Below, piece by piece: positions 14,800 through 60,734 of a DNA stretch of 64,000 bases. Within the stretch, counting starts at the first letter, position 1. Every line of letters begins with the position of its first letter. The translations under genes were made by a program, and so were the position numbers. The notes beneath the pieces are model-generated. The model was not told where the DNA came from, searched no databases, and saw only the letters and a program-made list of their open reading frames with translations. Origin of the DNA: Membranipora membranacea (taxonomy: Eukaryota; Bryozoa; Gymnolaemata; Cheilostomatida; Membraniporidae); contig OU612072.1 in NCBI GenBank assembly GCA_914767715.1, positions 2,110,001 to 2,174,000 on the forward strand, given 5' to 3'.

Positions 14800-16337
14800 T
14801 TAGTCTACATGATAGAACTCAGATATAAGTTTAGCCAGATTCATAGCTCTCACTTGAGGAGACATGAGTATTCTGTGTAAGAGTCTCATGTCTGAAGTCG
14901 ACTGAACCTTCCAGAAGCTGAGCACCTGATCCATCGGATCTCTAAGTCTAAGTCTCCTCCAGAACTGAATAGTTTCTGTAGAGACTCCGATCAGATGACC
15001 AAAGTGTCTCCAATCCCCTCCTATAACACATAACAGCGTTATACTATACAACACTAGGGGTACTGTGTCATATTATTTGAAGGTCTACCAACAGTTATTT
15101 TTTACTGGTAAGCATAATAGCACCAAGGACAGAGTTGTTTCTGTATATCTACCTCAAGCTTGAAGTAAAATGCCATGACTTTTGTGTAGCGACATTGTTA
15201 CATAAGGTTAAAAAAGAAGGTTTGTAATGAGGTATAGTACGTTCGACTAGATACACAACATTAATTCTGGAGGTTACCAGCTAGGCTACCAGCCATAACC
15301 CAGCCGGGCTCTGATTCGATATTAGCATCTATTAACTTACTATGAGATTTCTCGATGCTGAGCTCGTCACAGATAGCTTCTCTTATCTCTGGTATTATCA
15401 TCTTTATATGAGTATCACCGGAGTACTTTCTGATTGGCTGTAATAAGGTCATTGTATGGAGGAGGAAATGTAACATAAAGTAATGTCTTGTTATTACTGC
15501 ATGCCAGTGTGACTTAGATACCTAATCTTGGCAAAGTCGAAAAAATAGGCAAAATAGTAATAATATGCAGATATTTTTTGACCATGAAGCATAGCGGCAA
15601 ATGTGCTTAGGTGCACTGGTGACATGATAACCTACCAAATATGGAAGTGACAGTTTTAAACAGTAAAACTAAACAAGATAAAATGAAAGTACGATGATAC
15701 TGGTAACAATATCTTTAAAATAGCCAATGCAACCTAGTATCACTCCTGATACATAGTTGCAGCAGGTTATCGGGAAATCCTTTTTTGGCAACAATCAGGC
15801 AATCAGCCTGATTTCTTTGCTGGAAAGCCAGATTGAAGCATGGAATCTCATTATATTTTGTAGTGATGACCGACTGTGCATTATCTATTTAGGGTCAGAT
15901 ATATAACTCTTACCCTGGGTAGAGAGACAAATCCAGTCTCCATACTTCTCAGATACTCAGCATTCAGATCAGCCTGAGGTGACTCATCTTCAATGGGAGG
16001 AAGCTGGGTCAGATTAAACAATCGACCTCGTGGCTCATCACCCTTAGGGGCGGAGCTGTACAATGACTCATCATTCTGAGGGGCTGAGCTGTACAAAGAT
16101 GGAGATCTATGAGCCTGTGACCCGCTGCCGACCCTGCTGCTGTACTGGTGTGTAGAATTATACATCTGACTCTGAGCAGGAGCGGATACAGGTCTGGTTA
16201 CCGGATCCTCTGTGTGAACGAAAAAAAATTGATAAATAAGGCTGGACATTGACCCGCTGGTGAATGGTTGATTATTAGTCTTCAACTGGAATTGTTTGGA
16301 TTTCAACAAGAATGATGTTTTGGACAATTTTAATGTT

Positions 16338-22934: not shown

Positions 22935-25900
22935 TTATTTGAGGTCTTCATCGCCTTCAGTTATCTGTTTTTTGATACGTAGAAGTATAGAAGTCATCCA
23001 CTGATCGAGTCTAGAGATGCTGTCATAATCCGTCACAGCTGCTGTAAAATCCTCTTCATTCTCATTCTCCAAAGCTGGTAATATTTTCTGCAATTAAAAT
23101 TATAGAAATAAAGTTTCAATATCAATATTTAGATTCGACTCATGAGGAACCTAGTATCAGAAGTGTTATCATAGAGGATGATTCAAGCTATACTGTGGAT
23201 GGTTATAAATAAAATTTAGCTAGTGATTCCATTTTTATGGTTCATTATACAACAGTACAAAATGTGTATCTAAATATGAATATATACATAATAAGGCATG
23301 ACTTCAGGTTCAATCGTGAACAGATTCCCGTCAAAAGTTGATAATTGGAGGCAGTTAGGGAATTACAAAATAATATTACGTCCAAAATAAGAGCTCTATA
23401 ATAAGTAGCCTGTCTTGACAAGCTTCGTTCAGTGGGGTGTTTCAACCCCTTTCCTCCCCACCGAACAAAGGTTGTCAAGACAGGCTACTTAATATTAAGA
23501 TGTGTAAGTTAGCGACTTACCTCAAGGAATTTACATTCTCTGCTGTCAGCAAAGGCAGGCTGCATATCCTTATATTTATTCAGAGCCAGCTGTCCATTCA
23601 GAAAGTCTATACACAGATGACAGAGAACAGCTTTGAAAAAGTGATCCTTTGCGCTGTACTTGAGTAAAGTGTTATCCATAGCGCTGGTTCCTAACTGAAA
23701 ATGCAACGCAAAACCTGTTAGAATCACCAAAGCTTTACAGTCACTCATTAACTCATTGGTAAGACTGGGAAAAATCTTAGATTGATAGTACACCTTGGAC
23801 AAATTGGGGAGATAAAATATAAAATCAATATAATAATTGGGTATCGTACTTGGTCAAACCGGTGAATTTAGTCTTCTGAAAGTAGGTTTCAAGTTTCGAA
23901 AGTCATGGTATTAAGTAACATTAGTAAACCTGAATTCTCATTCACAAGACTTTTTCACACAAACCACTCGTTGAATGGTTTGGTATAAGAGAGGCAAAAA
24001 ACTCCATGTGAAGAGCTATCTTAGTGCTTCATCAACCAAGACAATAATAGTCAAACAAACATATGGGTGAAAGATGTCTGCAATCTTAGAGTGACTTTTT
24101 CCGGCGGGGGCTTCACGGATGTTCAATCATCTTCGAGTAACACTTGTATGGACTATGTGTAAGCTACATTAAGTTGGCTTACAGTGTAAAACACAATTTT
24201 TATACATAGAAAACAGACATGATATTAGTATATTTCATATACGAACCATCTCAAATAGTTGAGTGGCCTTCTCAAAGTCCGGAGGATCTTTCTGTACACA
24301 GAGTTGTGCGACCTTGAGACTATTTTTGTTAGCGGAGCTTGTGGATTCCTCTCCTCTGTAATAGTCTGCTGCAGTCTCATAGTGCTTCAGAGCCTTAACA
24401 ATATACAAAAAGTAACAATATATATAGCCTGATAGTGTAAAGTTAGCCTGTCTTGACCCAACAAAGCTTCTCAAGACAGGCTAGTGTAAAGTAGCCTGTC
24501 AAATCCATCATTATAGTTAAATCGAGGAGTAGCAGATTTCATGACCTAATATGATGTACTGCATCAAGTGAAACTGTCGTTTTTTGATGCTATGTATGCA
24601 GCACAGTAAGTGATAACAAATGACCCCATTAGCCTATAATGATATGTAATTGTATTATATGTACATAACATAACATAACATAGATGTGACAAAGTGTACA
24701 ATAACTCAATATCTAACTGTAAGTAAAACGATGATGACTGATTATAATCAATTATTTAGATTAGTAAAGTCGATATATTCAGAAAGGGACTTACATTTCT
24801 ACTACTAACAGCTAGTGCTCAATACATGCAGCTGAGTAGATAAGATGTGGGACTGATAAATCAATGAGGATTTTATACTGATATACTGATAGTTAGTTAA
24901 CCTGCTATACATATTACTCATATTGCCTCAGAAGTTTGTAGAGTTTATCAGTAGATATGAAACTGAATTCATTGTCGCCGAGTAAGTCAGATAATATTAC
25001 ACCAAGAATAACACCCAGCAGTATACAGTGAGTGAGATATCCTAATGCAGACAGTGTACTCACGGGTATCACCATAGGTCTAAACCATCCTCTGAATACT
25101 AACAAAACAGTGACCCTGCTGTCATATGGGACTTTTATAGTCATTCTGACCTAGTGACTGCCTATCCTAGTGACAAACAAATCCAAATGATGAGCAGATT
25201 AAACTTAAGCTGTCCAAATATAGCTGAGAATATCGACTTCCTCTTCATCATGGGAAAGTCCCAGTCAATCCTATTTACTGCATTGACTCAGGATTCAAGA
25301 TAAAAGTGCTGATACCTGCTAAGTACAGCACATACCTACACATCACATACCTACACATCACATACCTACACATCACATACCTACACATCACATACCTACA
25401 CATCACATACCTACACATCATTGTATTTAGGGTAAAGTACTCAATTTGGTTTTGCCTAATAAAGTTATCAAATTATCGATGGAGCCTTGACCAGCTAGTT
25501 TTACCAACTTGCTGTAAATAATAAAATGGCAAAATAAGGCCTTCGGGCTCCTGCATATGAATTATATTTTTTATCTATCACCGAAAAAAATCCTGCACGG
25601 ATTCATCTTCGCTGGCTTATCAGCAGTAGACAAGACAGCCTTGTCCCATTTTGCTCAATAGTTTCAGTTCCACTGGCAGGTAATTTTCAGTTCATATTAT
25701 AATTTGACTAACTGTATAATAATCGGCATTATGTAGAAGCTAGTACTTAATATGCAGATGTACGTAAAGTAGAGGTCAGTACAATAAGTAACAATAGTAA
25801 ATATAAGTATACTGTATATAAGTGTAGCAGTGGGCGAGGTGAGTGTACTTACTGTGTGCTGACTGGCTTTGCACTGTAAGTGTATCATAACTTACCATCT

Positions 25901-27556
25901 CGATATCGGCTGTGTCCAGCTCACAGATCTCAGCTATAGTAATATGATGTTTAGCTGCTATAGTAAATCTACCCATATCTGTATATATCTCTATAGCTTT
26001 ACCCAAACAGCTGATAGCCTGCTGGGGATCTGCCTTCCTGTACAAGAACAAAATATACCCCATCACACACCATATCCCGGTAATCATACATTGGCAAAGT
26101 CTACTTTGGCACCTACTCTACTTTGTGATCGGCGCAATGTGTATCTCAGATGCAAAAGTTTTTGTGAAAAGAGACTTTTAGTTTAGTTTAGTTTCAGAGA
26201 TATTGTGAATTGACTAGCAGCAGGGTATCTAGAACTAAGACCAACAGGGTAACCTATGTCCTAAAACAGGAACTGACTTAATAATTCATACCTGAAACAG
26301 TTACCAGCGTCTACATATGCTGTCGCGGCGTCATGTCGGCTGCCAAGCTTATTCTGTAGAGCAGCACATTCACAGAACGCTCCTCCAGCAGCTACAAAAT
26401 ATCGTGGACAGTACTAATCCACGCTCACAAAAAATACCACATAACCACTCAGTGCCATTGCCAGTTGTGAAGTATCTAGTTCAACTTTTTTTGTGGTACT
26501 TACTAACTTGATACCGTAGAACACTTTGCACAACTTGAAGTATTACTACCAGATTACTCACCACTGAGCCATCCACCGTTATGCAATTTCAAAGCCAACA
26601 AACCTTGAGAAATTTCAAATGCACCCAGCAATTCATTATTATACTACGAATTACTAACCTGGCCAGTTCTTTGCCATTTTGAAATTGTTTGCAGCTTTGC
26701 TGTATAAATCTGAGGCATCTTCCAGTTTAGCTGATGCACTACAAAACAGAGTGATATTTTATTACAATAGGCCTGTATGAAATCGAGATCAAGATAATAC
26801 TATGATAAGGAACAATACATCGTAATGAAAACAATAACCTGGTAGTCTACTGAAACTTCCCCCCTCCATACTTTAGTGATTGGATTGGTAGGTCTACTAC
26901 AACTACACCTATGACAATGGCACATTGGAATAAGCTGAGAATTATTTTCAGATCTGTGATTGATATAGTAACACATGCTCGGTGAAAGAGAATGAATAAG
27001 AAGTAATCCAACCCAGTCATCTATCTGAGGCTTCTGAATGACTCATGCTGAGTAACTAAGATTGTGTTCTGAGTCGTCCATTTTTTATTATAACCTGATT
27101 ATATTGATTGGTCTACAATACTTAACAATAACTTTTGAGGAGCTTCATCTAAGTTGCCTAGCATTTATTTTACAGGATAAGCTTAATTTTCTATCGTTTA
27201 TTCTCCTGAGCTCACTTGTGTTCATCTTGGATAACTTAGTCTCAGGCACCCACCCAGCATGTCTAATTATGATTTAACAACAAGCATAACTTAGCAATAC
27301 CACCACTGAACTCAATACCCTTTGCATCAACCATATTCGAGACTCTAATAAGTAGGACAGCTGAGTAGTGGTTCAGTATAAGCAAGGAGTCAACTCCTTG
27401 GTATAAGTAGCAATTCACCTTTGAATTGAAATGAAGGGGATCAAAATCAACTCACCCTCCTAACAGATTGGTCATGAAACCTGTGCTTGACTTTATCTTC
27501 TTCTCTGCCTCCTGCATGAGCTGTAGTGCTCTTGCTTCACTTTGATCTCCAGCCAT
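22935..27556 (-). CDS. NAPA: Alpha-soluble NSF attachment protein (alpha-SNAP, 298 aa)
   Basis: Seven minus-strand exons close exactly in frame: 27456-27556, 26659-26738, 26292-26391, 25896-26037, 24247-24393, 23521-23694 and 22935-23087. The 298-residue product has the family's usual length (about 295). It shows the TPR-like helical repeats with signature stretches such as [31 protein letters not shown] and LLKYSAKD. It ends in the conserved [13 protein letters not shown] and a Glu/Asp-Leu tail needed to stimulate NSF. alpha-SNAP binds SNARE complexes in the cytosol and recruits NSF to take them apart after membrane fusion. Sequence similarity favours alpha/beta over gamma-SNAP. The donor of exon 5 is the weaker GTTCGT. 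It is divergent from DYNC2LI1, sharing a short promoter region. Confidence 0.96.
23403..23490. mobile_element. Short foldback element, TAGCCTGTCTTGACA family
   Basis: 88-base hairpin: 'agtagcctgtcttgacaa' faces 'ttgtcaagacaggctact', with a second paired block 'gtggggt'/'cccca' inside. It lies in an alpha-SNAP intron. Shorter relatives occur at 24444-24482 and, more diverged, 34699-34727. Confidence 0.65.
24444..24482. mobile_element. Minimal foldback insertion with 10-bp direct flanks
   Basis: A 39-base hairpin ('tagcctgtcttga' / 'tcaagacaggct') flanked on both sides by AGTGTAAAGT (24434-24443 and 24483-24492). The direct flanks suggest insertion with target duplication. It lies in an alpha-SNAP intron next to exon 5. 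Confidence 0.55.
25329..25420. repeat. 15-bp tandem repeat in alpha-SNAP intron
   Basis: About six copies of a 15-base unit (cacatacctacacat), in the intron between alpha-SNAP exons 4 and 5. The frame it opens (repeated YLHIT) is an artefact. Confidence 0.95.
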
Positions 27557-27662
27557 TCTCTTGGTAGCCAAAAGACACTTTACACTGAATTTTCCTCCAA
27601 ATTTTAGGGTGATTCTGTAGTACCAAATAAATTAGCAAATTTTATCTTATTGATTTCAAAAC

Positions 27663-27866: not shown

Positions 27867-30800
27867 ATGGTGAAAAGGTGAATTGAAATTTAATATTTGC
27901 AAGAAGAACATCACTTGGCTTATAGTTCTTCAGATAATGATAAAATACTACAAAGTGGCAAGCATCAGTTGAGTAGTAGAGTGTAGTAGTAGAGTAGTAG
28001 TAGTAGTAGTAGAGTAGTAGGTGGCACCTGATCATTTTTGCAATCAAGCCACAGTGGTAGGGAACCCATTGTCCTGAATCTCTAACAAACTTCTACTATT
28101 CATTCAACACAGCCCAGCATTCTTAATCATCTCAAGACGAGAATCTTTGTAAAATATTAGTAATTTTCATAATTGTCAACAAAAAAGTCATACTACATCC
28201 TGATTATGCAGGATAGTTTAGATATAGATAGATTGTTCTATATCATGTGACTACAGCTTGAGGATTGTTTTGTTATTACAGTAAAGGTGACAGTTTATGG
28301 GATATCGGTATAGCGCAGAAGGCTGCTGCTGATAAAATTGAAGATCAAAGCGAGGAGAAGAATCTTCTCATCCTCGGCAATAAAAACTGTGTAAGATTAT
28401 TAGTACACTCAATGATAGCTGCTCCTACTCCTGATCAAGGCATCAAGGCTAACATACAATCTGACAGAAATATGACAATTTTTTACATTACAGAAAAAGT
28501 CCAGTTCTCTATGAGCAGTAGCCATTTTAACGTAACAAAATTATAGTCAAGGGCTGCTGTCTGTGCAGCCCATGTTGCGTGCTAAGACAGACTTTAGGTA
28601 CTTAGTCCAATCCAAAACTCGGGTGTTGTGAGATCTTTGGTAGGTGCTATGAGACATGTTTTACAGCGCAAAGCTGTATGACATGTCCCATAAAGCACCT
28701 GCATGAGCGACTCATGCATCCCCTAAAGCGCAAACAACGATACTTTATGCCTTGAGTGCTGTAAGAAATGTCCCATAAAGCATCTACCACATGTGTTACG
28801 ACGCCTCCAGCGACTGACTTTAGTGCCCATTCAGCACAGCATTCATTTTTATAACGTAATAAAATAATTTACAAGAAATAAATTTATTTATTTCGATATC
28901 ATTCAGTCCCAAACGGCTAGCAAAATTTTGAGTTCTTCAAGAATTAGATGCGAGTCTGCCTGCTTTGTGAACATAGTCACAAAATCTGAATAGTGTTTAT
29001 ATTTGATACTGAAAATTAAGAAAATTTCTTAAAACTGGAGCAGTGGATCCTATTTCCAGATGATGAACTTGAGCATACATTATGATCATATCCAATTGAC
29101 AGTACAGTGGAAAAATAATCAGCCTGAATTAATTGGTACAAATTGATTTGTTTGGATCAGTCATTTTCGGCAGTTTTTCGCTTGTAGTTTTGTTTTGGTT
29201 CTCATCAATTTGAACTGTGATTAATATGAAATACATCTGGCACTGTAATAAAGAAAAAGAAAAGAATATATTTTATTCACCCTGATGGTGCTCTATTTTT
29301 TGTGTTACAGGGAAAGACAACTTTGGTTCTGAGATTTCTAGACAGAGATGAGATACCCAAACCTACCACAGCATTAGAGTACACATTTGGTCGTCGAGCC
29401 AAGGGCCACAACTCTGTATGTATAATTAATTCAATATATTATGCTTATTATCCAATCTCTATGCTCATATGTACTGAAGAGTGTATGCAAATCTTTGATA
29501 TTAAGAGCCTTTAAAAATTACAAAATCTCTATAAACCACTAATCTCAGACACAATCAACACAATTACAGGCAAACTAAGTTTAGCCGAAGAGCCTTTGTG
29601 TTTTATGGTTGTGGTGCAAATCAGGATGATCACATTCACTATGTTTACTATCGTCCCAAATACAAAAGTATTAGGAAATTCCCCATTACGAAAACCACTC
29701 ATACTTTAGAATTAGATAAACCAACTGGCATCCGGATACACCTAAAAACGCAGATAACCAGTGAATCTGTATAAATAGAATTATAACTTTTCATGGACAA
29801 TCATTATAGTTTACTTCTAACATATATCTCATGGTTTATAGTGTACTTCTAACATATATCTCATGCTTTCTTGCCACAGCGCCTATGTGTTATCTGCACA
29901 AGCCTGATATGTAATTATGCCGTGTTATTTTTGACAGCTGAAAGATGTCGGCCATATTTGGGAACTGGGAGGTGGAGCGTTACTCTCTAAGCTGATAGAT
30001 GTACCGATCAATTCTCAGAACATCATGTGAGTTAATGAGGTCCTGGTTAATACACGGCTCTTCTTCCTACCATATGATTTATAGATCTCATTGTAGCTGT
30101 CTTGGAAACCTTCTACATCAAAGTTGTTGTGTTGACCCTCCGACTTTTAGATAGTAACTGGTTAACATCACAAGGAAAACATAAAGTATAGTATGGTATT
30201 AAATGATCGGGCAGTAATTCTTCAATAGAAACTTACTCTCATATTTTCGATACCTTACCCTTGTGACTTCATCATAGAGCGATATGATGTGGGAATATTT
30301 TCTTTGCTCAGGGACACAAGTGTAGTATTAACCGTTGACCTCTCCGCACCTAATGACATCTGGGTTACGATGGAGGTGTTACTGAGCTACCTAACCAACA
30401 GAGTAGAAATTTGTCTAACTGAGGCGGCTCGTCGGGATAGTCAGCTGTGGGATAAGGTCAAGGCCAACACAAGAGAGAGGCTCGGTGGAGATCATCCTGT
30501 AAGTTATCTCGAATCCTTCCTGCCCTGTCCCGTGTATGCATGTTATTGTAATCAATTAAATAGTATTACCATATCTATAAACTAGTTTTAGGTTGGTGTT
30601 ATGTGATATAAAAAACTGTTGTTCTGCTGTGTTTTTCTCACAAAAGCTAAGGAGGTCTACAGAAGTTTCATACCGGTTGTACTGCGGCATGTGGTTAAGT
30701 GATTCGAAGCATCATTCATGTTAAGGAGGCAGCGTCTTTCTGAGACCACCAGACCGTACAAATGAAGAATTCACTGATGGAGTATCTCTCTGATCCTTTC

Positions 30801-32729
30801 CTATTATTACTTTACATAGGAAGATATCACTGTCTGCACTTCTTGATATATTAGATCACTGATTCAGAATTGTCTATACACCATAGTCAAAAACGATTAA
30901 TTAACACCGCCGCACATTGAACACTTATACTGATACCTATATACTTACAGGACATTGATATGATGGAGCCGTTTAGGATCCCACTTGTTATAATCGGTAC
31001 AAAGTTTGATTTATATCAGGAGCTGGATCCAGAGAAAAAGAAAGTCATCGCTAAAACACTCAGATTTATGGCTCATACTTACGGGGCTAGTTTATATGTA
31101 AGTTCATATAGTAGTCTATGAGTAAGTCGATTTCATTGGTGTCTTATATAAAAATCAAAATGAGGCTTTTGAGGGCAGTCGCCTCAAATATGCTTTTAGG
31201 TTACATTGATCTATTGAACTTTATATTTTCATATTTATAGTTCACAAGTGTGAAGATTGAATCTTCAGTGAATAAAGTCAGGAGTACCATATCTAGTCTG
31301 GTGTTTGGTACGCAGGTAAATAAGGCAACATCTCAGGTTGATCACGGAAAGCCACTTGTTATACCTGCAGGATCTGATTCTCTGCAAAATATAGGTAAGA
31401 ATCTTCAACCAGCTATATCACCAAAAAAACAAACAGTTAGTGTAGCATCCAACTGACCTTTTTTTTTATTCAGTGATCTGAGCATAATTAATCTATACAA
31501 TTTATTACCTATATTTGTTGGGAGCGGTAAAAAGCTCAGTTCACCAGCACACCTTGTTTCAGTGACTGACACAAATGAGAAGGATTTTTCATGCATCACT
31601 ACGGTTCACTGCTGTATATAGTGTTTACATATCAACATTTGAGCCATCACCAGTTTACTGTTACACCTGCTATTGACCGCAGTATATAACAGCCCTACAC
31701 ACGCCGTGACTGTTACATGCATAATATGGTGATAGCGTAGTGGTAGGTAGTACATATCGGAAACTACTAAATATTTGGTCTAGGTAATTCATTGTGAGTG
31801 CAAGACAAGAGCTAAAGTCTGTTTTACATTATTATATATAAATGCAATGCTTATTGATTTTGTAGGCACACCACCGATCTCAGATGATGATATCGGATCT
31901 ATACCAGCTCGGAATCCTGTAGAGTTGTGGAAGCACGCCTTCTGTAAATACTTTCCTCAAAACGCAATAAGAAATAAGCCTCAGGATGATCCATCTAAAG
32001 ATGTTCAGGTAAGAGTATGTATGACACTCATGCACACTGTGCGGTCAGTATCATACAGTAACGCAGATATTGATGAAGCAATGGCTAGAGTATAGCTTCA
32101 TTCCTGTATCTGTCCGCTAGTCAATTAATAATTTAGACTGTAAAATACCAAGGGAAACCTTTTATGTTTCATGAGGGCAAACAATCAAATATTAGGCTTA
32201 ATTTTAAATGGTCAGTGAAAGGTAACCACATAGCCTACTGGCTTATTGCATTGTCTATTCATTATGCAGGATCAGTTTAAGGTTTCTTACACAAGTTGGA
32301 GTTGTCCTCACAACTTCAGTGAAAAGATAACTTTGATTTTCATCAAACTTTTACTAAGTATTTTTCCTCTCAGCTCTTATACATGAATGTTATCATGGTC
32401 ATCCAAGATATGTTGAAACATTTTTACTTTCAATAAAGATGAATGTATTGTTGGAATCAAAGGAAGAAGGGGATCTACTCACAGGATGATAAATAGCATT
32501 TTAATTGAATTGCTGATTAGTTGATTATACTGAACTGAAGAATGGTTATCTGGTGTAAGCTGATACTTGTTTTTCTTATATTCTTGTGTTCTGTTTGTAG
32601 TTCTCTGAGCCAGTGATTGATAAGCTCAGATTGGAGAAGGATAATGAACTAGAGAGATACAGGAAAGCTTCGGAGAGAAAAATGAGGGAGCTCGAGAAAC
32701 AAGCCCTGCAAGACGGTATCCTAATTTAA
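27867..32729 (+). CDS. DYNC2LI1: Cytoplasmic dynein 2 light intermediate chain 1 (357 aa)
   Basis: Nine exons close in frame: 27867-27877, 28282-28390, 29311-29415, 29938-30026, 30312-30498, 30951-31097, 31241-31394, 31866-32008 and 32601-32729. The protein is a Ras-like GTPase-fold subunit of the dynein-2 motor that drives retrograde intraflagellar transport in cilia. Visible features: an N-terminal SLWDI helix, a P-loop GNKNCGKTT (36-44), the family block [46 protein letters not shown] (the TKxD-like base motif) and a charged C-terminal helix. Length fits the family (about 350). The 11-base first coding exon (MVK plus two bases) is my best choice; it has a good donor and correct phase but is less certain than the rest. 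Confidence 0.94.
27965..28021. repeat. TAG trinucleotide repeat
   Basis: Interrupted run of tag/agt triplets in the first intron of DYNC2LI1. Confidence 0.9.
29490..29790 (+). pseudogene. LINE reverse transcriptase 3' fragment in DYNC2LI1 intron
   Basis: Shares an extended match with 17235-17430 ('accactaacctc', 'cacaatcaacacaat', 'ggttgtggtgc', 'cattcactatgtt'). The zinc-motif frame is further decayed here: the first cysteine pair is lost and the frame is shifted. It is a non-functional remnant. Confidence 0.5.
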
Positions 32730-33699: not shown

Positions 33700-36600
33700 A
33701 TGAGCTCACTGAAGGACTTGTGGGACAGTCTGACTCGGACCACTCCTCCTCCATACAGATATGATTACTACTCTGGTGGAGGCAGCAGCAGTAATAATGA
33801 TTCACTCATTCTGTATATTGTAATCATTGCCGCGATTATAATAGCTGGAATACTGGTACTATCCTGCCTCGTCTGCATGATCAGGGGCTGCGTATGTATA
33901 TACAAGTCATCTTATCAATTTTGTCTGTTACCTTTTTCTCATGTTCTATGTGCGAATTAGCGTCTACTAACTTTTAAATTAAATGACTATCTAACAGGCC
34001 TGCACAGAATCTAAATCACTGTCAAATACTTGTTCATAGTAAGTTGTACTTGAATCTTTGAATCGCTTTGACACTATTTGATGATCAGTTATCAGAGAAA
34101 TAGGTGATGACTCAGCATGTTAGCACCTCACAAACAGATTAAGTGTGATTACACTTTGCGGGGCTTTAAGAAACTGATTGGGTTGTCACAAACACAAGGA
34201 TGTTTCTGCAGGGTGCTGTTGCTATGATATTGAAAAAGCGAGATGATATTTATAGACAAGGTTTAGAGACAGCGTTTGACTCGATGTTAAAACTAATGAC
34301 CTTGATGTTCTGTATAGTGGTTCGCCCAACATTTTTGTAACTTATTCTCTAACTAAGAAGCCCTCGCCATGTATTTGCTATTTGGCATGTTGATGATTGC
34401 AGTGAAGTAAGCCAGAGGAGCTCTCTTCGTTACCTCGCAAGACAAGTTTCTTTGCTTATTTTTGGTTATGTTGAGTGAAAACCTAGACCTCACTATATTT
34501 TGTTATGTTGTTATCTCAGTGTAATTTAGCAAGGAAACAGAACTGCCCTCTGTTGTGTAGAATATGTAGGCGATCATGTCGCTCTCAATGTGGAACTGCT
34601 TATGTTAGCCCAGAGGAGGCAATACTCAGACCATATGAAGGCGTGCTAGGTAAGTTAATCATGACATCACTTCCAAGCAAAGAGTAACAGGGTACCTGGC
34701 CTGTTTTGATAACTTGTCAAAACAGGCTTCAGACACCCTATTACTCCTGTTTTCCAAGTCTCATTTTTGCAAATATCATTTCCTTGCGCTCCATATGTTC
34801 AGAATACTATAGATAGATAGAGGTTATTTTTACCGCTCAAAATATTGCAGGGTGATGTGGCTATCATAATGAGAGTGAGTGTTACATAAAAAACAAAAAC
34901 TAAAAATCAGTATGTATTTAAAATGTCTTTGATGAAGGAACACCATATTTGTAATTCAGAAATACGCATTCAACAGCGTATTGCATTGTTACATCATCCA
35001 GGGACCTGATTGGTGTAATCTATTTGCTTATTGCAGAGAATGATGAGTTGTTTATGAAGTCGGTAACAGATAATCAGATATTAAAGTCTGTGGTTTGTGA
35101 GATTAATAGAAGTTGTCTCCACCTAAATCTGGAGCCTCAGATAGTCGGCTCACTAAAGGTACACCCTCAAGCTAGTAATAATCAGACTATCTATCTCTGT
35201 CTCAGTCTGTTTCAGACTTTCTAACACTATCCCAGACTACGTCAGATTATTTCAGTCTTTCTCAGACATTCTCAGACTATCTCTGTCCGCTTAAGATTAT
35301 CTTAGACTTTCTCAGGCTATCTCAGACTCACTCAGAGTATCTCAGACTATCCCTGTCCGACTCTACGACTAGATATATTTTCTCCGGCTTCACTTTGGCT
35401 ATTTATCATAAAAAATATTTGTGCAAGGTTTGTTCATTCTCTGTTACATAATTTGAATCATTCTTATTTGGGATGAGATGCTGCATTAAATACTCTGAAC
35501 GATCGGACTCAATCATTACTTGCAGCTCAAAAGGAAAGCCCCATCAGCTTGTAATCACTTGATCAAGCAAAAAATCACCTTCCGGAATTCTGAATAGCGC
35601 ATAGAATTATTAACATTGTTTGCTTTCCATGACTTTTCCAATGACTAGTACAAATTTCTCAAAATGAAGTATTGACAATTGGAGGGTCGAATTACATTGC
35701 TGATCTTATCGTTACCTGATATTTCAGCAATGAAATATTTCCATCAAAGATTATAAAGCCTGGGATAACCTTAACTAAAACATTGCTGTTTACCCAATTG
35801 AGAATACATCCTCCATACACTTGATAAAACATTGGTGTTCTTCCACCTACCTTAGCTTTCTCACATGATCATAAGATCCCTGGCCGTACCTTGATCCATG
35901 TGTACAAGATTGAATTTTCTATGGAATATGGAATCAAACGAAGCAATAAATGACACTTTTGTATTAATTAGAAATTAACTCTCCTCTTTTCAGGAGCGAT
36001 TAGGAAAACCTACAAGAGTAATCACAGAGGAATACCCGACAGGTTTACCTAGTAGGAGCCCTCTCTGCACAGACATAGATGTTATGATGATTTGTAAATC
36101 ACTGTCCACTACACACAATCCACTTGTCTTTGATAGACTCATTATCATACCATCCTCTTCAAGTCTTGGTAATTCTAACCCCTTTATTCAATGTATACTA
36201 GCAGAATTATATTTATTGGTCTTAAAACCTAGTTCATCTTACTGATCTGATGCATATAGGGTATAGATTTCTTAAGGTGCAGAACATTCAGGCAAATCTA
36301 CAAAATCTATCATAAATGCATTAAAATCTCCAGAAACTGAAAATTACTCGTCATTTTAAGGGTGTGGACCTAAAGTATTTACTTTCATTCTTCGCACAGG
36401 TTTTGCTAAACTACAGATACCTTATGCTGTCTATACTCACAGCACTATGGGATTCGTACAGTCTTTGAGTGCCAGAGTTGATCACTTTGCAGGGAATACT
36501 AGGCAAACATCTCACTACCTCTCAGCAGAACTGGTATGCGTAATTAGTCATCTATATATAAACTGTGTTTTTATTAAATTTCGGAGTTGTCGCTTGGTGT

Positions 36601-39600
36601 CTGCGAGAAGACAACTCAGGACTACATAACTGGAAAGCTGACTAAAATTTTATAATAAATGAGAGAATCACAGTAAAACATCAGAAAACTTTCACATAGT
36701 TGAAGAATGTTTAGTTGGTGTGCAAGATAATTCGGCATCAGATAGTGATGTGATAGTTATATCTCTGCAGGTCAAGCAGACCCTTCTAGGCTCACTGAGA
36801 AATCTACATGTGAAGAGGCTGATGAAGAAGACAAAGGCAAAGCTTCACCATCACAGTCGAGCCCTTAAGGTGGAGCAGCGCGGTCCAGCAGTAAAGGTAG
36901 TGATCAGACAACAGATGTCATCATGTACTCGATGTTGTATGTTAGGACAGTGTAGTCTGAGGTTATGCTGCTGTATGACTGCTTGTTTAAGAGATGGTAA
37001 GTAATACTGTCATTACTATAGGGCTGTTGACTACGACAACTGAGGGCGGATATTAGAGTGCTTCATCTCTAGCAAATACTTTGAATTGTCCCCTCTTTCT
37101 TAAGAGATTTCGATCCAATGTGACTCAACATTAATAGTATGTTTTTTTATGCTGTGATTGATCTATGCTATCTAGTCTGACGTTAGCCTTTACTTTCTGA
37201 CTTTTTGCAAGCCTCATTTTGCATGTTACTCTCTACGTTGATTGAGTTATTCGTTTAGTTGTGAGATAGATCATGACCATGTTGCTGTTGAAAAACCATT
37301 GATTTTTGCTGCTACATTTATATCAATACAGATGATTTAGATGTGTCATTTGAGGGAGATTTCACATTTGCGCTGAGAGTTGGTGAATGGCCTAGTCTGG
37401 CTACTGAATGGATACAACGACCGAGAATATGGCCTCACCCCAATGTCATACAGGTAACTTTAACTGGTCTGATCTGCAATTTTTTGCACTGACCCTTTTG
37501 CTACTGCACTTATGCAGGAGATTTAGGAGATTGTATTACAGGCATTAAAATTTTGTTTTGCCTGCAAAATTAGATTTCTACAGTCAACGCTTCTCTCTCA
37601 TGTCAACCCATTTGAATCAAAAACATCCAGGAAGCACAATGACTAAGTTCTAAAATGATGATGATAGTGATAATGGAACTGCCCACAACTCTATTGTGGG
37701 AAATTCCCTTGTCGAAGCAAACCGATGAACTGGTTGAACAGGCTAAGACAGGTAGTTTTGCTATAATTTCAGCATGTTATGTGAAAGCTGTTTAAACTTC
37801 TAATTTTGACAGTCAATAATTAGCATCCATCGTCATTGTGTGCAAAAATGATTATGATAACATTGTCAGAACAAAGCGGTCCGTTAAATTTTGGTTAAAT
37901 TCAATCAATCAACCAGGTCGCAAGGTCTTTATTCAAAAGTTTTGTGTCCAGAGCATCACAAACATTACTGAACACACTCTTTGTTTATTTAGTGTGTACT
38001 GAGTCGGGGATGTGCTCTAGTACCAAAATCTGACTGGGGAGAGGAGTTATTATGGAGATACAGTTTCTCAGAGGCAGAATATACTCTGATCAATAACGTA
38101 CCACCTCCTACACTCAAAGTTGTACTGTCTATTAAAGTAAGTACATCACCTACACTCAAAGTTGTACTGTCTATTAAAGTAAGTACATCACCTACACTCA
38201 AAGTTGTACTGTCTATTAAAGTAAGTACATCACCTACACTCAAAGTTGTACTGTCTATTAAAGTAAGTACATCACCTACACTCAAAGTCGTACTGTCTAT
38301 TAAAGTAAGTACATCACCTACACTCAAAGTTGTACTGTCTATTAAAGTAAGTACATCACCTACACTCAAAGTTGTACTGTCTATTAAAGTAAGTACATCA
38401 CATACACTCAAAATTCTACTGTCTATTAAAGTAAGTACATCACCTACACTCAAAATTGTACTGTCTATTAAAGTAAGTACATCACCTACACTCAAAGTTG
38501 TACTGTCTATTAAAGTAAGTACATCACCTACACTCAAAGTTGTACTGTCTATTAAAGTAAGTACATCACCTACACTCAAAGTTGTACTGTCTATTAAAGT
38601 AAGTACATCACCTACACTCAAAGTTGTACTGTCTATTAAAGTAAGTACATCACCTACACTCAAAATTGTACTGTCTATTAAAGTAAGTACATCACCTACA
38701 CTCAAAGTTGTACTGTCTATTAAAGTAAGTACATCACCTACACTCAAAGTTGTACTGTCTATTAAAGTAAGTACATCACCTACACTCAAAGTTGTACTGT
38801 CTATTAAAGTAAGTACATCACCTACACTCAAAGTTGTACTGTCTATTAAAGTAAGTACATCACCTACACTCAAAGTTGTACTGTCTATTAAAGTAAGTAC
38901 ATCACCTACACTCAAAATTGTACTGTCTATGAAAGTAAGTACATCACCTACACTCAAAGTTGTAATGTCTAACAAAGTAAGTACATCACCTACACTCAAA
39001 ATTCTACTGTCTATTAAAGTAAGTACATCACCTACACTCAAAATTGTACTGTCTATGAAAGTAAGTGCTCTGAACAGCCATCTCTAAAATAATAGGAAAG
39101 AGAAAACATAGAATAGACCTCAGTCAACATCTTGTGTTCACTGTAACAATGGTGATTGTTGGTACTGTTTGTACTTGTAGGGACTTCTGAAGAGATATAA
39201 CTGCCCCCTTAAGTCATACGCCCTCAAGTCAATGATGCTCTGGTGTCTAGAGGCACACCGAGAAGATCCTGAGATACTCACAGACTCTCAGAATCTACCG
39301 AGAATATTTGATTGTCTCCTCAAAGAATTCCTCAACATGATCAGAGAAGGTACGTACAAAGTGACTCAGAGAAAATGCTAATCCTCATAAAGTAATGGCT
39401 CAAAAAGAATCTGATCCAATAAAAATCCACAAGTTTTCCCTCGCTCGATTGTTACAGTTGATATCATTGTCGATTAAATAGAATGATTTTGATAACAAAA
39501 AAGATAGTTGCACTCTGATGGTTAAGGGTGAGGAATTGTGAACATATTATCCAGGTTCAATTTGAGTCGGATTTTATTTATGCCATTCAAATCAGATCGA

Positions 39601-40155
39601 TGATGATGCATTGTGATTTTATATTCATTTAGGCCGCTGTAGACATTACTTTATGAGAGAAATCAATCTTCTTCAGGAGGATAACATACAGAGAATAGTT
39701 GAGATCCTGGAAGAAATACTCGCTGATCCCTATAGCTATCTCACAACAAGGTTAGCCTCAGAACTTTACAGTGAGGTTATGTCAAAACAGGATAGGATTT
39801 ATCCCTATGTGCTTTAAGATTATTTTTAAAAAAATTTTTATACTGACAGCATTAAAAATCTTCTTTTTTTTTGACGAGACCACGGTTATTTTCAAACAGA
39901 ATCAACTGAGACATCCGTATTGTAATGTTATTAATTATTTTCAACCCTCGTACCCCCCCCCCCCCCCCTTTCCATTTTTGCCCCCCCCCCTTACACTTGA
40001 CACTGATATTTGTTTCAGATCTTACATAGCTTATTTATTATCATTCTTTCTACTGTAGAGCATTAGAGAAGAGTAGATGTTGCGCTCTGAGTACAATGAT
40101 TTGTAGATTGATGTGTGGATGTCATGATACTGAATCAACTCTGGATATCTACTGA
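33700..40155 (+). CDS. Membrane-anchored Mab-21/cGAS-like nucleotidyltransferase-fold protein 1 (542 aa)
   Basis: Eleven exons close in frame: 33700-33891, 34520-34649, 35037-35158, 35994-36168, 36400-36533, 36771-36996, 37332-37453, 37993-38136, 39181-39349, 39633-39750 and 40059-40155. Order: short Pro/Tyr/Gly N-terminus (1-35), one transmembrane helix (about 36-61), cysteine-rich juxtamembrane segment (64-90), then the Mab-21 fold. G145-S146 and D175-x-D177 match the nucleotidyltransferase GS...DxD motif. GPAVKVVI (289-296) and D336 in GDFTFAL supply the third acid. The C-terminal half has LKSYALKSMMLW, typical of Mab-21. Extra cysteine clusters are at 303-323 and in the C-terminal tail. 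The acids being kept makes an active enzyme possible. The membrane anchor recalls ITPRIP-type Mab-21 proteins. Tandem paralogue at 41603. Intron 8 begins with a minisatellite of splice donors. Confidence 0.88.
34699..34727. repeat. Small hairpin, diverged TAGCCTGTCTTGACA family
   Basis: 'gcctgttttga' faces 'tcaaaacaggc' across 7 bases, in intron 2 of the first Mab-21-like gene. Confidence 0.4.
35170..35365. repeat. Degenerate TCAGACTATC tandem repeat
   Basis: Loose array of roughly 10-11 base units around 'ctcagactat' in intron 3 of the first Mab-21-like gene, starting just after the exon 3 donor. Confidence 0.8.
38137..39060 (+). repeat. 42-bp minisatellite made of exon end plus 5' splice site
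   Basis: Exactly 22 units of 42 bases with no length change; only point differences. Each unit is 12 bases of intron start (gtaagtacatca) followed by a copy of the last 30 bases of exon 8. GTAAGT donors therefore stand at 38137 and then every 42 bases to 39061, 23 in all. In the plus frame every unit is open (14 codons beginning VSTSPTLK), and the frame runs on to a stop about 8 codons past the array. The paralogue at 41603-49546 has no such array at this intron. The 350-codon minus frame over it is a repeat artefact. Confidence 0.97.
39949..39988. repeat. Poly-C tracts
   Basis: Two runs of C separated by a short T-rich spacer, in the last intron of the first Mab-21-like gene. Sequence length here is error-prone. 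Confidence 0.9.
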
Positions 40156-41602: not shown

Positions 41603-44600
41603 ATGTCTCAAGTGGTAGATTTTTTTAATGGACTCTTTACAACAGCTCCACCTCGATATGTCAACACTTATTACACAGGCAGCGGTGTAGATGATGAAAC
41701 ATGGTGGTGGATAGGCATCATCGGAGGAGCATCTGTTGGCGGAATTTTGTTTCTAGTCCTTCTTGGCTTTGCTATACGTGGATGTGTAAGTCTCAAATCA
41801 TGTTATAATACAAGTGGACATCCCTATATATTGTGTCAGATCATCAAGTGGACTAACAGGCTCTATGTGCCTCAGTATTCTTACGAGCTAGGACAAATCC
41901 TCACTGCTATACTATAGGGTAGTTCAATGAAGTTCAAAGTCAGGGTCTCAGATGAGCTGTGAGGCAGCTTCTCACACTGTTCAAGGACCATCTACCCAAT
42001 TCAAAAGTTGCATGATACAATTTTCGATTTACACTGATTCACTTTTTCATCTTTCCCTAGCTAGGCAAGATATCATAAGATATCAAACCATCCTCTGACC
42101 TTCTGATATTATATGGATTTCAGTGTCAGTGTGCCAGGAAGCAGAACTGTCCTCTGTTGTGTAGAATCTGCAGAAGATCGTGTCGTTCTCAATGTGGGAC
42201 TGCAGATGTTAGTCAGGAGGAAGGGATCCTCCGCCCATATCAGGGAATACTTGGTTAGTTTGAAGGTCATTATTTCATTACTTCAATTCGAGTGAGCTTT
42301 GTTGCAAAAGACTTTCGATGCCCAAACATCATGGCGCAATTATAAAGATTGCAAAGTGCGGCTGCAACCCCTTCTATCTTCGACATTACTTCATCTGTGG
42401 TTTCCTGTAGAGTTTCTTGATTTTCCTCCCAAGAATAAACCGCCAATTGTAATCAAAAGTTCCAAGGACACTAAAAAATATTCAATAGGGGATTTTTGTG
42501 AATATCATGACAGCGTATCAGGTAAATTTTATTTTGTGAAGAAAATGAGAAGTTGATGAAGAAAACCGTGATCGAACACCCGATCCTCAAAAATATTGTG
42601 AGCCAGTTGAACAGAAGCTGTGAACAGTTTAAATTCGAGACTAAGCTTGTTGGATCTCTGAAGGTAGTATATTTGACCACTTCCCTGTTTAATTACTACA
42701 TTGATCAGTTGAGACCAAAACTTAGTTGTTACAGAAGTTATCACAGCAAGCCTTTGCATACCATACTAAATAGGAAATATTGACACCTGACACGTTGATA
42801 ATAAAATGTTTTGAGAAAACCAGTTTGCTTTACTTATTCACTCACGCCAACTATGAGCACACATGCATGAGAATCAATATGAATACGCTACCCTTCAGTT
42901 CACCTACAGCCAGATTTTTCTGTCATCATCATTCTCAACAGTGTACCACAAATGTTTGGGAATACAGTGCTTAAAACAACAGATCAGTACACAATTTTTT
43001 TTGCATTGTCCAGGAGAGATTAGGCAAACCTACAAGAGTGATCACTGAAGAATACCCAGCAGGATTACCTAGTAGGAGTCCTCTATGCACAGACATAGAT
43101 GTCATGATGATCTGTAAATCACTACACACCACTCACAATCCACATATCTGTGACAAGCTTATAATCTTCCCGTCTATATCTTCAAAGGGTTCGTCATCAG
43201 TATTCAGATATACAGAACTAGATTGCTACAGCCAATCTGTCAATGGGTTGGGACATTGATATAGCATTTTATATCAATGGGTTGGGATCGATAAATCAGT
43301 TGTCAGTGTCACTCATAAAAAGAAAGTGAACTCTATGGGATTCCACCAAAGTAAGCGTACTGCTGCTAGATTCATTAAGAGAAAACAATTGAAATTTTAT
43401 AAGCACCACTAAATCTGATGAGAAAAAATGTTGAAATAAAAAATTCTTACACAAAAAGTGGAATCGCAAATCTGAGAACCAGAAAAAAGGTGTTTATGTC
43501 AGTAGTATCAACAATCTACAGAATGAAATTTCCTTTCACGGCCCTATTTGTATAATATTATATTGATTGTAGGTTTTGTGAAGGTGATGGTACCCGCTGC
43601 AATGTATCAGAGTAAGATCACAGACTTTATCAAACCTCTCAGTGTCAAGGAGGACAATGATGAAGGAAAATTTACTCAGACAACATACTTCCTCTCTGCC
43701 GAATTGGTAAGTAACTTCTCTGTAATAATCTTTTAAAAAAATTTAAATTGTTTTCTTTCGTTAGTTGTAAATAGCAAAGGACTGCAGGTAGCTACGCAAA
43801 ATGACTGTGACACCTAAATAGACGGAAACCTGATCCCGATTTAATAGCTCTAAACTTCTTGGTTGATGATGTAGCATAATTGCCTATTGATGTTTTTGAA
43901 CTACCTGAGACAAGTATAGGATGCTGTTTTTTTCTCACGAGGAGATGGTAGGATTATATCTTCATAATGGCCAACAGATTTGATCAACTATATAATAAGC
44001 AAAGGGTGAGTTGTTTCCCGAGCTAGTTCCACGCTGGGGATAATTTAGGCAGCCATATCAGGTTGAGTCTATCTGAGGCTTTGTGATAATAGCATTCAAT
44101 CAAATAACCCTACGCTACAATATAATTCTCAGTGGAGAATATAGTTCAAACCAAAAAGTTGTTAAGAAATAAAATGCACGAATATTAGAAATTCCCAGCC
44201 TTTTCAGCACTTACCTTTATTTTTGTGATCCTAGAGAAGAAAATGTGCTGACAAGAGAAAGAACAACGATCATCTTCCTCGCTTTGTTTTCATTTCATTG
44301 TCTGTCTGCTTTCCCATGTTTCACTTGATGTACCATCACTGTTTTTTATGAGATTCGAGGATCGATATTGTTATATCTGTTTTCCAGGTTAAAAGTTCAT
44401 TGTGTTCAACACTTAGAAAGCTGAATGTCATGAAGCTTGCACAAAAATCTAAAGCTAAATTACATCACCATCGTCGAGCGCTAAAGGTGGACCAATGTGG
44501 CCCAGCTGTGAAGGTTGTGATCAGACAACAGATGTCATCATGTACAAGATGCTGTATGTTAGGACAGTGTAGTCTGAGGTTATGCTGCTGTATGACCTGC

Positions 44601-47600
44601 TGCTTACAAGATGGTAAGTATTGAGTTTTTGAAGGTTGATACTGAGACTGCTTTTGACTGCTAGTGACGTATTTATACACCGATTCTCTCAATTTGAATT
44701 CAGTTTTCCGATTTGAAAATTAATTTTAGTGGCGCTGAGTTAAGTATCCATCAGGCAACCTGCTTATTGATCATAAACTGCTTGTCCATAAATATCAGAT
44801 AAAATATCTTTGTTGGTATTATTTATTTCAGAGGAATTAGATGTGTTATTTGAAGGTGACTTTACCTTTGCATTGAAAGTGAGTGAATGGCCATCTTTGG
44901 CAGTAGAATGGATTAACCGTTCACGGAGCTGGCCCTCTCAAGAGTTAGTCAAGGTACCACATTATTGATTATCCGAGCATATTGTGTGCTAACAATAAGG
45001 TCCTCGTTAATGTAGGCTATGTATTGTTTTTGAGATACAAAATTGCTATTTGATTCCTGTAAAGATTATCTTTATTTTCTATCATGGATGTCTTCCATTG
45101 TGCGAGTAGTCAATTTTTACATCTTTGAAAGTGAAAATCATCTTGGTGTGTGTTTACCGGTTGAAAGGGTCAGGATTGCTAATCGCTTCTCAGGCAGATA
45201 TGGAAGAATGGATGCATAGCTTTATACTTCTTCTTTCAAATAGTTGGTTGACTATAGACCATCAGAAAAGGTACCATGTTATCTTACATAATAAGCCCTG
45301 ATCATGCGCTGGCCAGATAAGGTCCTTAACCCGCATCAATGTGTATAATGGAACAAAATGTAAAAAATAAAGATAAAGGTAGGTACTTCAGCTACTTTTA
45401 TCTTGTAGACCATCCTAAACGAAGGCTGTGCTCTGGTACCAAAGTCAGAATGGGGCCAATGGCTATACTGGAGGTATAGTTTTTCTGAAGCAGAACGGAC
45501 CTTGATAGGAAAGATTCCCTTAGCTACACTGAAAGTAGTCCTCGCTATCAAAGTAATTAATAAGTGTCTCATAATGCGACTTATATTGTTGTATCAGACA
45601 TACATCAATAAAAAAAGAGGCAGCAGACATGTCAGTCATCATCAAAAATCATCTCTCTTATGGTTCCCGTTGCTGCAAATAAGTGAACATCATATTAGTT
45701 TTTATTTTAGCTTATGTCAAAGTGTATGGTTCATTTGTCAACTTGAAAGATCTAACACTTAAAAAGCCTGTTTGTGAAGGTCTAGGATGCAAAGCAGCAT
45801 TTAGAGCTCTAGGCAGAATTGAATCTTTCCAATGAAAACAAAGAACTTTTCTTTTCTGATAGATTAAAGTGGCATAAAACCCTGGCACCACTAGTTATGA
45901 ATCCACTTGCAATTTACTTTCACAGATAGGCAGCGTACTCAACAATGAAAATCCTAGGTATAAGCTCCGGTTCTGCACCGCAGGGCAGTCAGCAGCCCCT
46001 AAACCCCTATGGCTTCAAAAAAACTGAATTAAATTGGGAAGCTATGTTTTGTTTATAATCTCATAGAAAAGCGTAATTTCTTTTTATTGAAGGCAAAAAC
46101 ATTGTTTTTGTAGATGATTTTTCAATTGACATGCCTGTGTATGTATTAGATTGAAACAAACGAAAGATAGCTGCTTTACTTCCAGAAACAAATAATTTTC
46201 TACATCAACATTTTCCAGCAATACATTTATTTTAAGAGTATTAACACTTGGCCAATCATATTGGGTATGCCTGATACTGAAACAAAATGGTGGAAGAGAG
46301 TTTGCTATTAACATAATTAAAATTTTCTAATTTAATATTTGATTCTAACATGCAAGTTTAGAAAGAGTAAATCATTACGCATCAAATATCAAAATATAAC
46401 TTTTATGGTTGTCTGCTCCTTTAAGATGCTTTTTGTCCGTTGGTAAACAAGCGATCATCACTTAGTTTACTTGTCGAACTTTTCTAGTGTTTATTGGATC
46501 ATGCTAACTTATTATTATTAGTACTGCTCCCTGCAAGAGAACATCTTGACTATGTCCACTTTTGATGTGTATTTTTACATATATGTTTTATAGAACTATG
46601 AAAAATAACTGGTAATATTTATTCACATTTCAGGGATTATTGAAGAGATATAACTGTCCTCTAAAGTCTTACCCACTAAAGTCCATGTTACTCTGGTGTA
46701 TGGAGAAGCCGATGGATAAACCTGACTTCTGGTCAAACTCTGAAAACTTATCTGAAATTCTTGAATACCTACTCAAGGAATTTCTCAACATGATCAAAGA
46801 AGGTTTGACTTTAATAAGATTCATTTACGCAACTACGTAGAAAATAAGATGAGAAATAAAACACTGCAATGAACGAACGAAACATGAGAGTATTATTTTA
46901 TGGTTTTATCATGAATGCCTACAGCGCATACTATGAGAGCCTGTGTCTTCATGATGTGCCTGCAATTGTTCTGTTTCATTCAATAACATGGCTCTCAGGT
47001 TGCCACTTTATTCATTGACTTTGTAGTGGAAAAGCAAAATCATTGCCCTGGTTTATGGTAGCAGTATTTAACTATCAATCATGCTCCTTTTGTTGGTCTA
47101 GGTGTTGATTGCAATCAAATGCCAATACCAGCAATCCAGCTAACATTTGAGCACAATAACTAACTATTTTTAAGAACATCCTAAAAACCTACGATTCCTT
47201 GAATAATCAGCAGATTGGGAAGCTTTTCAAGGCTTAAGGCTAAGAGAGAAGTACACCTGTATTATCTCGTATGGATCCTTTCTTGATTCTTTAAAGGCAA
47301 ATGTAGTAATTATTTCATCCGTGAGATAAACTTGCTGGAAGAAGAAAATACTCCCAGGATTATTGAGATACTAGAGAAACTTGCTAAGAATCCTTACCAA
47401 CACTTAACAACCAGGTGATGTACTGCGATTAATAAATAAATGGGTAAGTGGTCATTTCGGCCATGTCACGCCCTTGCATAGCCCATACATCGCCTATACC
47501 ACGCACAACACATCGCACCTGATAGCCCATACCTCGCCCAAGTTTAAACTGCTGTGTGGTGTATGTGCGATGTACCAACATGGCCCACCCTCGCATTTTC

Positions 47601-60606: not shown

Positions 60607-60734
60607 GTAAGATGGTAAGTAAGACGGTAAGTAAGATGGTAAGTAAGATGGTAAGTAAGATGGTAAGTAAGATGGTAAGTAAGATGGTAAGTAAGATGGT
60701 AAGTAAGATGGTAAGTAAGATGGTAAGTAAGATG
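60607..60734. repeat. 12-bp tandem repeat (gatggtaagtaa)
   Basis: About ten and a half units, one with a T-to-C change. Frames across it on both strands (MVSK, YLPS and similar) are artefacts. Each unit happens to contain GTAAGT. Confidence 0.97.

Follow-up and report, generated by a model that had tools for sequence, protein, structure and literature searches.

Which of 23 equivalent 5' splice sites is used when a tandem repeat has multiplied the end of an exon, and what does the choice do to the protein? The question is raised by a 64-kb stretch of Membranipora membranacea DNA (contig OU612072.1, positions 2,110,001 to 2,174,000; the whole stretch analyzed is called the window), in which a 42-bp repeat lies across the exon 8/intron 8 border of a Mab-21/cGAS-like gene, gene A. 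The original prediction described the array as a possible tunable length switch. The features discussed are summarized in Table 1.

Table 1. Features of gene A, its repeat array and paralogue B (window positions; a slash marks the exon/intron border)
Feature	Positions	Strand	Remarks
Gene A, Mab-21/cGAS-like, 11 exons	33700..40155	+	phases consistent, one open frame ending TGA
Exon 8 of gene A, 144 nt	37993..38136	+	acceptor tttatttag; ends AAA, phase 0
30-base part of the unit in the exon (zeroth copy), PTLKVVLSIK	38107..38136	+	equals positions 13-42 of the commonest unit
First donor, AAA/GTAAGT	38137..38142	+	position of the single donor of paralogue B
Repeat array, 22 units of exactly 42 bp (commonest: VSTSPTLKVVLSIK)	38137..39060	+	each unit opens with the donor GTAAGT
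Last (23rd) donor, AAA/GTAAGTGCTC	39061..39066	+	only donor followed by unique intron sequence; would leave 120 nt of intron
Exon 9 of gene A (GLLKRYNCPLKSY...)	39181..39349	+	starts in phase 0; aligned with the paralogue from 46634
Paralogue B, exons 1-10	41603..47414	+	single intron-8 donor AAA/GTAATT (45553), without array

The exons of gene A were set by splice signals, guided by alignment to the tandem paralogue, gene B. Pfam and relative searches were run with a 315-aa query, a rough join predating the gene model. This query matched PF03281 (44.2 bits) and PF20266 (42.5 bits; cut-offs 24.1), and gene A has both the Mab-21 NTase and the Mab-21_C domain. With the same query, the best solved relative was cGAS-like receptor 1 (8gjy_A, E 2.2e-15), and the best named relatives were coral cGAS-like receptors, including Montipora cGLR1 (E 1.8e-16); a profile built from A, B and two proteins of corals picked out 14 proteins at E of 1e-5 or below. 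The catalytic comparison took a G-S plus acidic triad as the motif. The putative third-Asp column (D229) was invariant in all four aligned sequences, and A and B both have a GSL and a DID, matched by eye, which are out of register with GS and E-F-D of the coral proteins and spaced further apart. A hydrophobic segment, judged by eye, is located at the N-terminus. Over exons 2-10, 67% of the residues of A and B agree; because dN is 0.25 with synonymous sites near saturation (0.73 differences per site), A and B look constrained. With its open frame across 11 exons, the host gene A also looks intact.

Two Cys-rich stretches were observed in both paralogues. The first (CTRCCMLGQCSLRLCCCMTACLR in A; 36771-36996 and 44388-44613) is at the end of exon 6, is flanked by the GPAVK strand on one side and by the strand carrying the putative third catalytic Asp on the other, and is the top of six A/B blastn pieces with 87% DNA identity over 160 bases. 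The second, an exon encoding QNCPLLCRICRRSCRSQCGTA (34520-34649 and 42124-42253; 84% protein identity), follows directly after the N-terminal hydrophobic segment, an order that suggests a cGAS-like protein anchored in the membrane. Intron 3 of gene A contains, from its 24th base, a degenerate 10-bp array (35182-35351; TCAGACTATC, 17 copies) that repeats acceptor-like pyrimidine-CAG motifs. Elsewhere in the window, the minus strand carries exon pieces of an alpha-SNAP-like gene (22938-27631; PF14938 on one piece, the others identified by eye) and an open frame with a Death domain match (14803-15072; PF00531, 25.0 bits, cut-off 22.6). The exon pieces on the plus strand at 28262-32726 we take to be a dynein-2 light intermediate chain gene. 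Rfam gave 0 matches in the window.

The repeat was reported by TRF as a single array (38107-39066; period 42, 22.9 copies, 97% matches, 0% indels, score 1815) and, phased on the donor, resolves into 22 units of exactly 42 bp, so that the predicted number, length and position of the units proved correct to the base, both by TRF and unit by unit. The array itself is plainly more than chance. Its sequence is that of a minisatellite (tandem units of ~10-100 bp, high identity, many copies), and it is also a boundary repeat, spanning the exon 8/intron 8 border with its exonic part in 23 copies in A vs. one in B. The units are of seven types in the order AAABAACDAAAADAAAAAEFGE; 14 of the 22 are identical, and units 19-22 are all variant, with most other units identical. 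The frame of gene A runs through the array with 0 stops, the remaining two plus-strand frames having 25 and 20. An antisense open frame of 364 aa crosses this same open repeat and was for that reason rejected as a gene. The 23 donors do not differ from -3 to +6 and share the 9-mer AAAGTAAGT, of which the plus strand of the window has one further copy; the donors are thus equivalent, as predicted. As there is no stop and exon 9 begins in phase 0, the expected range of added residues likewise stands: any of the 23 donors gives 14n residues, with n = 0-22 (0-308). Some junctions would be recognizable by unit variants: the exon end CTATGAAA joined to GGACTTC is possible solely from donors 38935 or 39061, CTAACAAA joined to GGACTTC solely from donor 38977, and CCACCT directly 5' of the 30-base copy is unique to the first donor. 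The in-frame state of the array is not remarkable. By chance it would arise with a probability of about 0.3 (one period in three is a multiple of 3), and eight of the nine other introns of gene A are stop-free in phase 0 over their initial 12 bases.

Two other minisatellites of the window recall parts of the unit. At 60607-60734, a 12-bp repeat of 10.7 copies reads GGTAAGTAAGAT in one phase, a donor-like array on the plus strand; among the 28 listed tandem-repeat rows of period at least 6, some of them overlapping, a unit with GTRAGT is limited to this one and the 42-bp array. In the SNAP gene region (25325-25420), a 15-bp repeat ACATCACATACCTAC of 6.4 copies is similar to the ACATCACCTACAC portion of the 42-bp unit, a likeness that is probably fortuitous.

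Paralogue B has intron 8 at the same position and in the same phase, and no TRF array was found between 39066 and 49520, an interval covering gene B. All nine of exons 2-10 are equal in length in A and B, the start of exon 3 and the end of exon 10 of B having been set with A in view and the last B exon lying outside the model; exon 1 differs, with 192 nt in A and 183 nt in B. Since B has the same intron with one donor and no array, and exon 8 (45409-45552 in B) has 144 nt in both, the ancestral protein was most likely without units, that is, the zero-unit protein probably represents the ancestral state. The same comparison is what a purely intronic repeat would give, in which the first donor (38137) is always used, the other 22 stay unused and the frame is open simply because coding sequence was duplicated: exon 8 would stay at 144 nt as in B, and intron 8, measured from the first donor, has 1044 nt in A, comparable with 1081 nt in B.

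The exon 8/9 border is located at LSIK/GLLKRYN, opposite LRILK/ALKEGL in the alignment with the coral relative. In the coral protein P0001, this corresponds to residue 274/275, ten residues into the Mab-21_C match (265-359), and a predicted helix (261-282) crosses the insertion point, in a poor model (pLDDT 34.9) that we treat as weak. Each unit repeats PTLKVVLSIK, and therefore the last unit used would rebuild the start of Mab-21_C, making the surplus equivalent to an insertion ten residues upstream. The effective insertion would thus correspond to one immediately ahead of PTLKVVLSIK, close to where the NTase domain borders on Mab-21_C. The original placement in the helical half is in this respect half right: the insertion point itself seems to be in the first Mab-21_C helix, but the repetition shifts the surplus to the domain border. 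This rebuilding of the junction by every unit might be a structural reason why any donor is tolerated. Human in-frame tandem splice events are described as selected against in structured protein regions (PMC2279118), which, as far as that account extends, speaks against easy tolerance in a helix. When cGAS chains were compared with the coral protein, extra CC...C residues were found within about 4 residues of the equivalent insertion point. These residues are presumably the zinc thumb.

The interval from SFSEAE to LKSY, which includes the insertion site, is 40 residues long in 10 of 11 measurable relatives and 39 in the other (15 retrieved), and 34 in A and B. The wider family varies in length at this site, the cGAS chains being longer and the chain of mab-21-like 1 (5eog) seven residues shorter. 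This variation, and the position beside cGAS-specific extra residues in a host gene related to cGAS-like receptors, favor a selected length switch, in which donor choice or a change in copy number would tune the spacing of the NTase core and Mab-21_C in an immune sensor; so does the fact that all donors are in frame and that each rebuilds the helix start. The single length in 10 of 11 close relatives argues against such a switch, as does the in-frame chance of about 0.3, and is what a purely intronic repeat would show.

The variants among the units bear on the same two readings. Eight distinct changes were counted, seven non-synonymous and one synonymous, where 62 of the 88 non-stop changes of the exonic part are expected to be non-synonymous without constraint; over the same 30 bases, A and B differ by five synonymous and two non-synonymous changes (Fisher p 0.04 for the two sets, with small numbers). 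No unit change creates a stop, for which the chance is 0.77. The units would thus seem to carry no sign of protein-level constraint, with eight distinct changes being too few to exclude a weak one. Variants that look unconstrained are consistent with a repeat that is purely intronic and are a further point against a selected switch, which we regard as very improbable. Of the original switch proposal, the anatomy, the open frame and the constrained host gene have held up; the unconstrained unit variants and the one length of close relatives weaken its functional part. No variants were found in the 12 donor-side bases of the units (0 of 15 variant cells), and the donors could possibly have been kept, which would go against the explanation that we prefer below. 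Selection to keep the donors was nevertheless rejected as not significant by distinct change (p 0.07-0.16); the value of 0.006 applies if the cells are independent, which they are not.

The splicing signals were compared with those of the rest of gene A. Each unit has three AGs, all with A at -3 and with 50-61% pyrimidine upstream, whereas the 10 acceptors of the gene A model have C or T at -3 and 61-83% pyrimidine (exon 9 is preceded by ttgtacttgtag). Multiplication of acceptors by the array was rejected because of the A at -3 of all three unit AGs. The array donor 9-mer scores 7.75, within the range of the nine other donors of gene A (1.5-10.4), vs. 3.45 for the intron 8 donor of B, on a donor score table. 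The exonic copy and five units fold no better than shuffled sequences (z -0.33; 71 of 200 shuffles at least as well). The mean unpaired probability is 0.31-0.33 at the first 18 donors and 0.36-0.59 at the last five; all 23 (0.31-0.59) fall inside the 0.21-0.68 of eight other gene A donors, those of exons 2-7, 9 and 10. RNA structure hiding the donors was rejected on the basis of the shuffle test and of this accessibility, which is like that of the other gene A donors. As the donors are equal in 9-mer and similar in accessibility, position or bound proteins must decide the choice between them. Speaking against constant use of the first donor, nothing in the identical stretch from -3 to +6 favors the first site, and folding is alike at the first 18 donors and slightly freer at the last five; we consider a purely intronic repeat unlikely, though well worth keeping in mind.

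When two 5' splice sites compete, the SR protein SRSF1 is reported to favor the intron-proximal and hnRNP A1 the intron-distal one (PMC5585400). As these two proteins, in the description given there, push to opposite ends, donor use biased to an end would be expected, with internal donors minor. The preference of SRSF1 is in line with a constitutive exon extension, in which splicing starts from the intron-proximal last donor (39061) and the protein normally has 308 additional residues; the last donor alone leads into unique intron sequence and would leave an intron of 120 nt behind it. The reported preference of hnRNP A1 points the other way (PMC5585400), exon 8 would reach 1068 nt, and paralogue B and the relatives measured are without such an insert. 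AlphaFold2, run on exon 8 and the array alone, returned a row of strands with a mean pLDDT of 85.5 and a pTM of 0.85, the exon 8 part being low, which could be taken to favor an extension with ordered strands. Confident beta-solenoids for perfect repeats are, however, described as a known AlphaFold2 artefact (PMC11795689), and a Foldseek search with the array model gave 23 matches at E up to 10, the best at 0.62, with no solved fold matched. An ordered beta-solenoid insert was rejected on account of this artefact class, as the source presents it, and the lack of a Foldseek match, and no conclusion is drawn on the fold. Constitutive extension is in our judgment improbable. The original prediction held exclusive use of the first donor to be what refutes the switch; it does so, but is not the sole alternative, as exclusive use of the last donor likewise ends the switch idea.

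The explanation that we prefer, with a probability of roughly 0.55, is that the array is a minisatellite of recent origin that is tolerated, with donors used mainly at one end and in-frame isoforms forming a minor ladder. A tandem duplication would have copied the end of exon 8 and the start of intron 8 of the cGAS-like (Mab-21) gene and grown to 22 units, each supplying the half-helix TLKVVLSIK, which must join GLLKRYN. Splicing from any donor would then keep the start of Mab-21_C intact and place 14n residues between Mab-21_C and the NTase core; as any donor leaves this start intact, we infer that the array is tolerated rather than selected. Donor use would be dominated by one end, either the ancestral first or the intron-proximal last donor, and the intermediate donors would give minor in-frame isoforms and no regulated switch. 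The all-variant units 19-22 beside otherwise identical units appear to fit the pattern of a young minisatellite. Rather doubtful to us is a graded isoform ladder, in which the cGAS-like sensor would be made in up to 23 lengths via identical in-frame donors, with modules beside the zinc-thumb position and copy number heritably setting the range.

How the unit arose can be followed in part. Within it, ACATCA links GTAAGT to the CCTACACTC of the exon, and the unique downstream intron (GTAAGTGCTCTG at 39061) shares only GTAAGT with the unit. The proposed intronic origin of 12 bases of the unit therefore stands for GTAAGT, common to the downstream intron, but not clearly for ACATCA, whose source was not found in either flank of the array. 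A GTA that occurs both in GTAAGT of the intron and in GTACCACCT of the exon is, as a conjecture, a possible microhomology behind the duplication.

With 23 identical 5' splice sites at a regular 42-nt spacing, one acceptor and a frame that is always kept, the locus is a natural experiment on donor choice. The pattern of donor use, at the first site, at the last or spread over many, would show directly if position by itself governs the selection of 5' splice sites in this animal. Were several donors to be used, an immune-sensor-like enzyme would have in the minisatellite a heritable dial for its length.

The array can be compared with several known systems. Like the cGAS-like receptors of the Mab-21 family (8gjy_A; Montipora cGLR1), gene A has both Pfam domains and the third-Asp column, but it differs from them in its N-terminal hydrophobic segment, its Cys-rich stretches, an identity of about 33% and the donor array. 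Competing 5' splice sites of one intron are also found in the subtle tandem donors (PMC2423196, PMC2279118), which are described as mostly two sites a few bases apart (PMC2423196); here, 23 sites with an identical 9-mer are 42 bases apart. Intron gain by duplication across an exon-intron border is known from a potato RdRp gene, and fission-yeast genes have multiple 24-bp AGGT-containing duplicates, with introns spanning two or four copies (PMC4974935). The array resembles the potato case in the duplication across the border and the fission-yeast case in the repeated copying of a splice-signal segment, but these create a new intron (PMC4974935), whereas intron 8 of gene A is also present in the paralogue and has had its donor alone multiplied. 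Intron gain by tandem duplication was rejected for gene A, as intron 8 is present in B at the same position and in the same phase and the unit AGs have A at -3. The closest parallel may be drawn with young duplicated genes of the human genome, in which variable internal tandem repeats at exon-intron boundaries have been surveyed (PMC2812944). As summarized in that survey, these have on average four 30-bp units, are mostly expanded in primates, and in 66% of the intron modifications there is also a transcript that keeps the repeat. The array shares with them, in the features that the survey sets out, a minisatellite across the exon-intron border of a duplicated gene and a copy number that differs between paralogues; the alternative transcripts reported there to keep or remove the repeat (PMC2812944) would correspond to the isoforms predicted for gene A. 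Compared with the human repeats described with novel introns (PMC2812944), it has 22 units with a genuine donor each, no good acceptor, and all are in frame. Border minisatellites that alter splicing have thus been described before, and the array is of that kind, but with a genuine donor multiplied 23-fold, in frame, in a cGAS-like gene.
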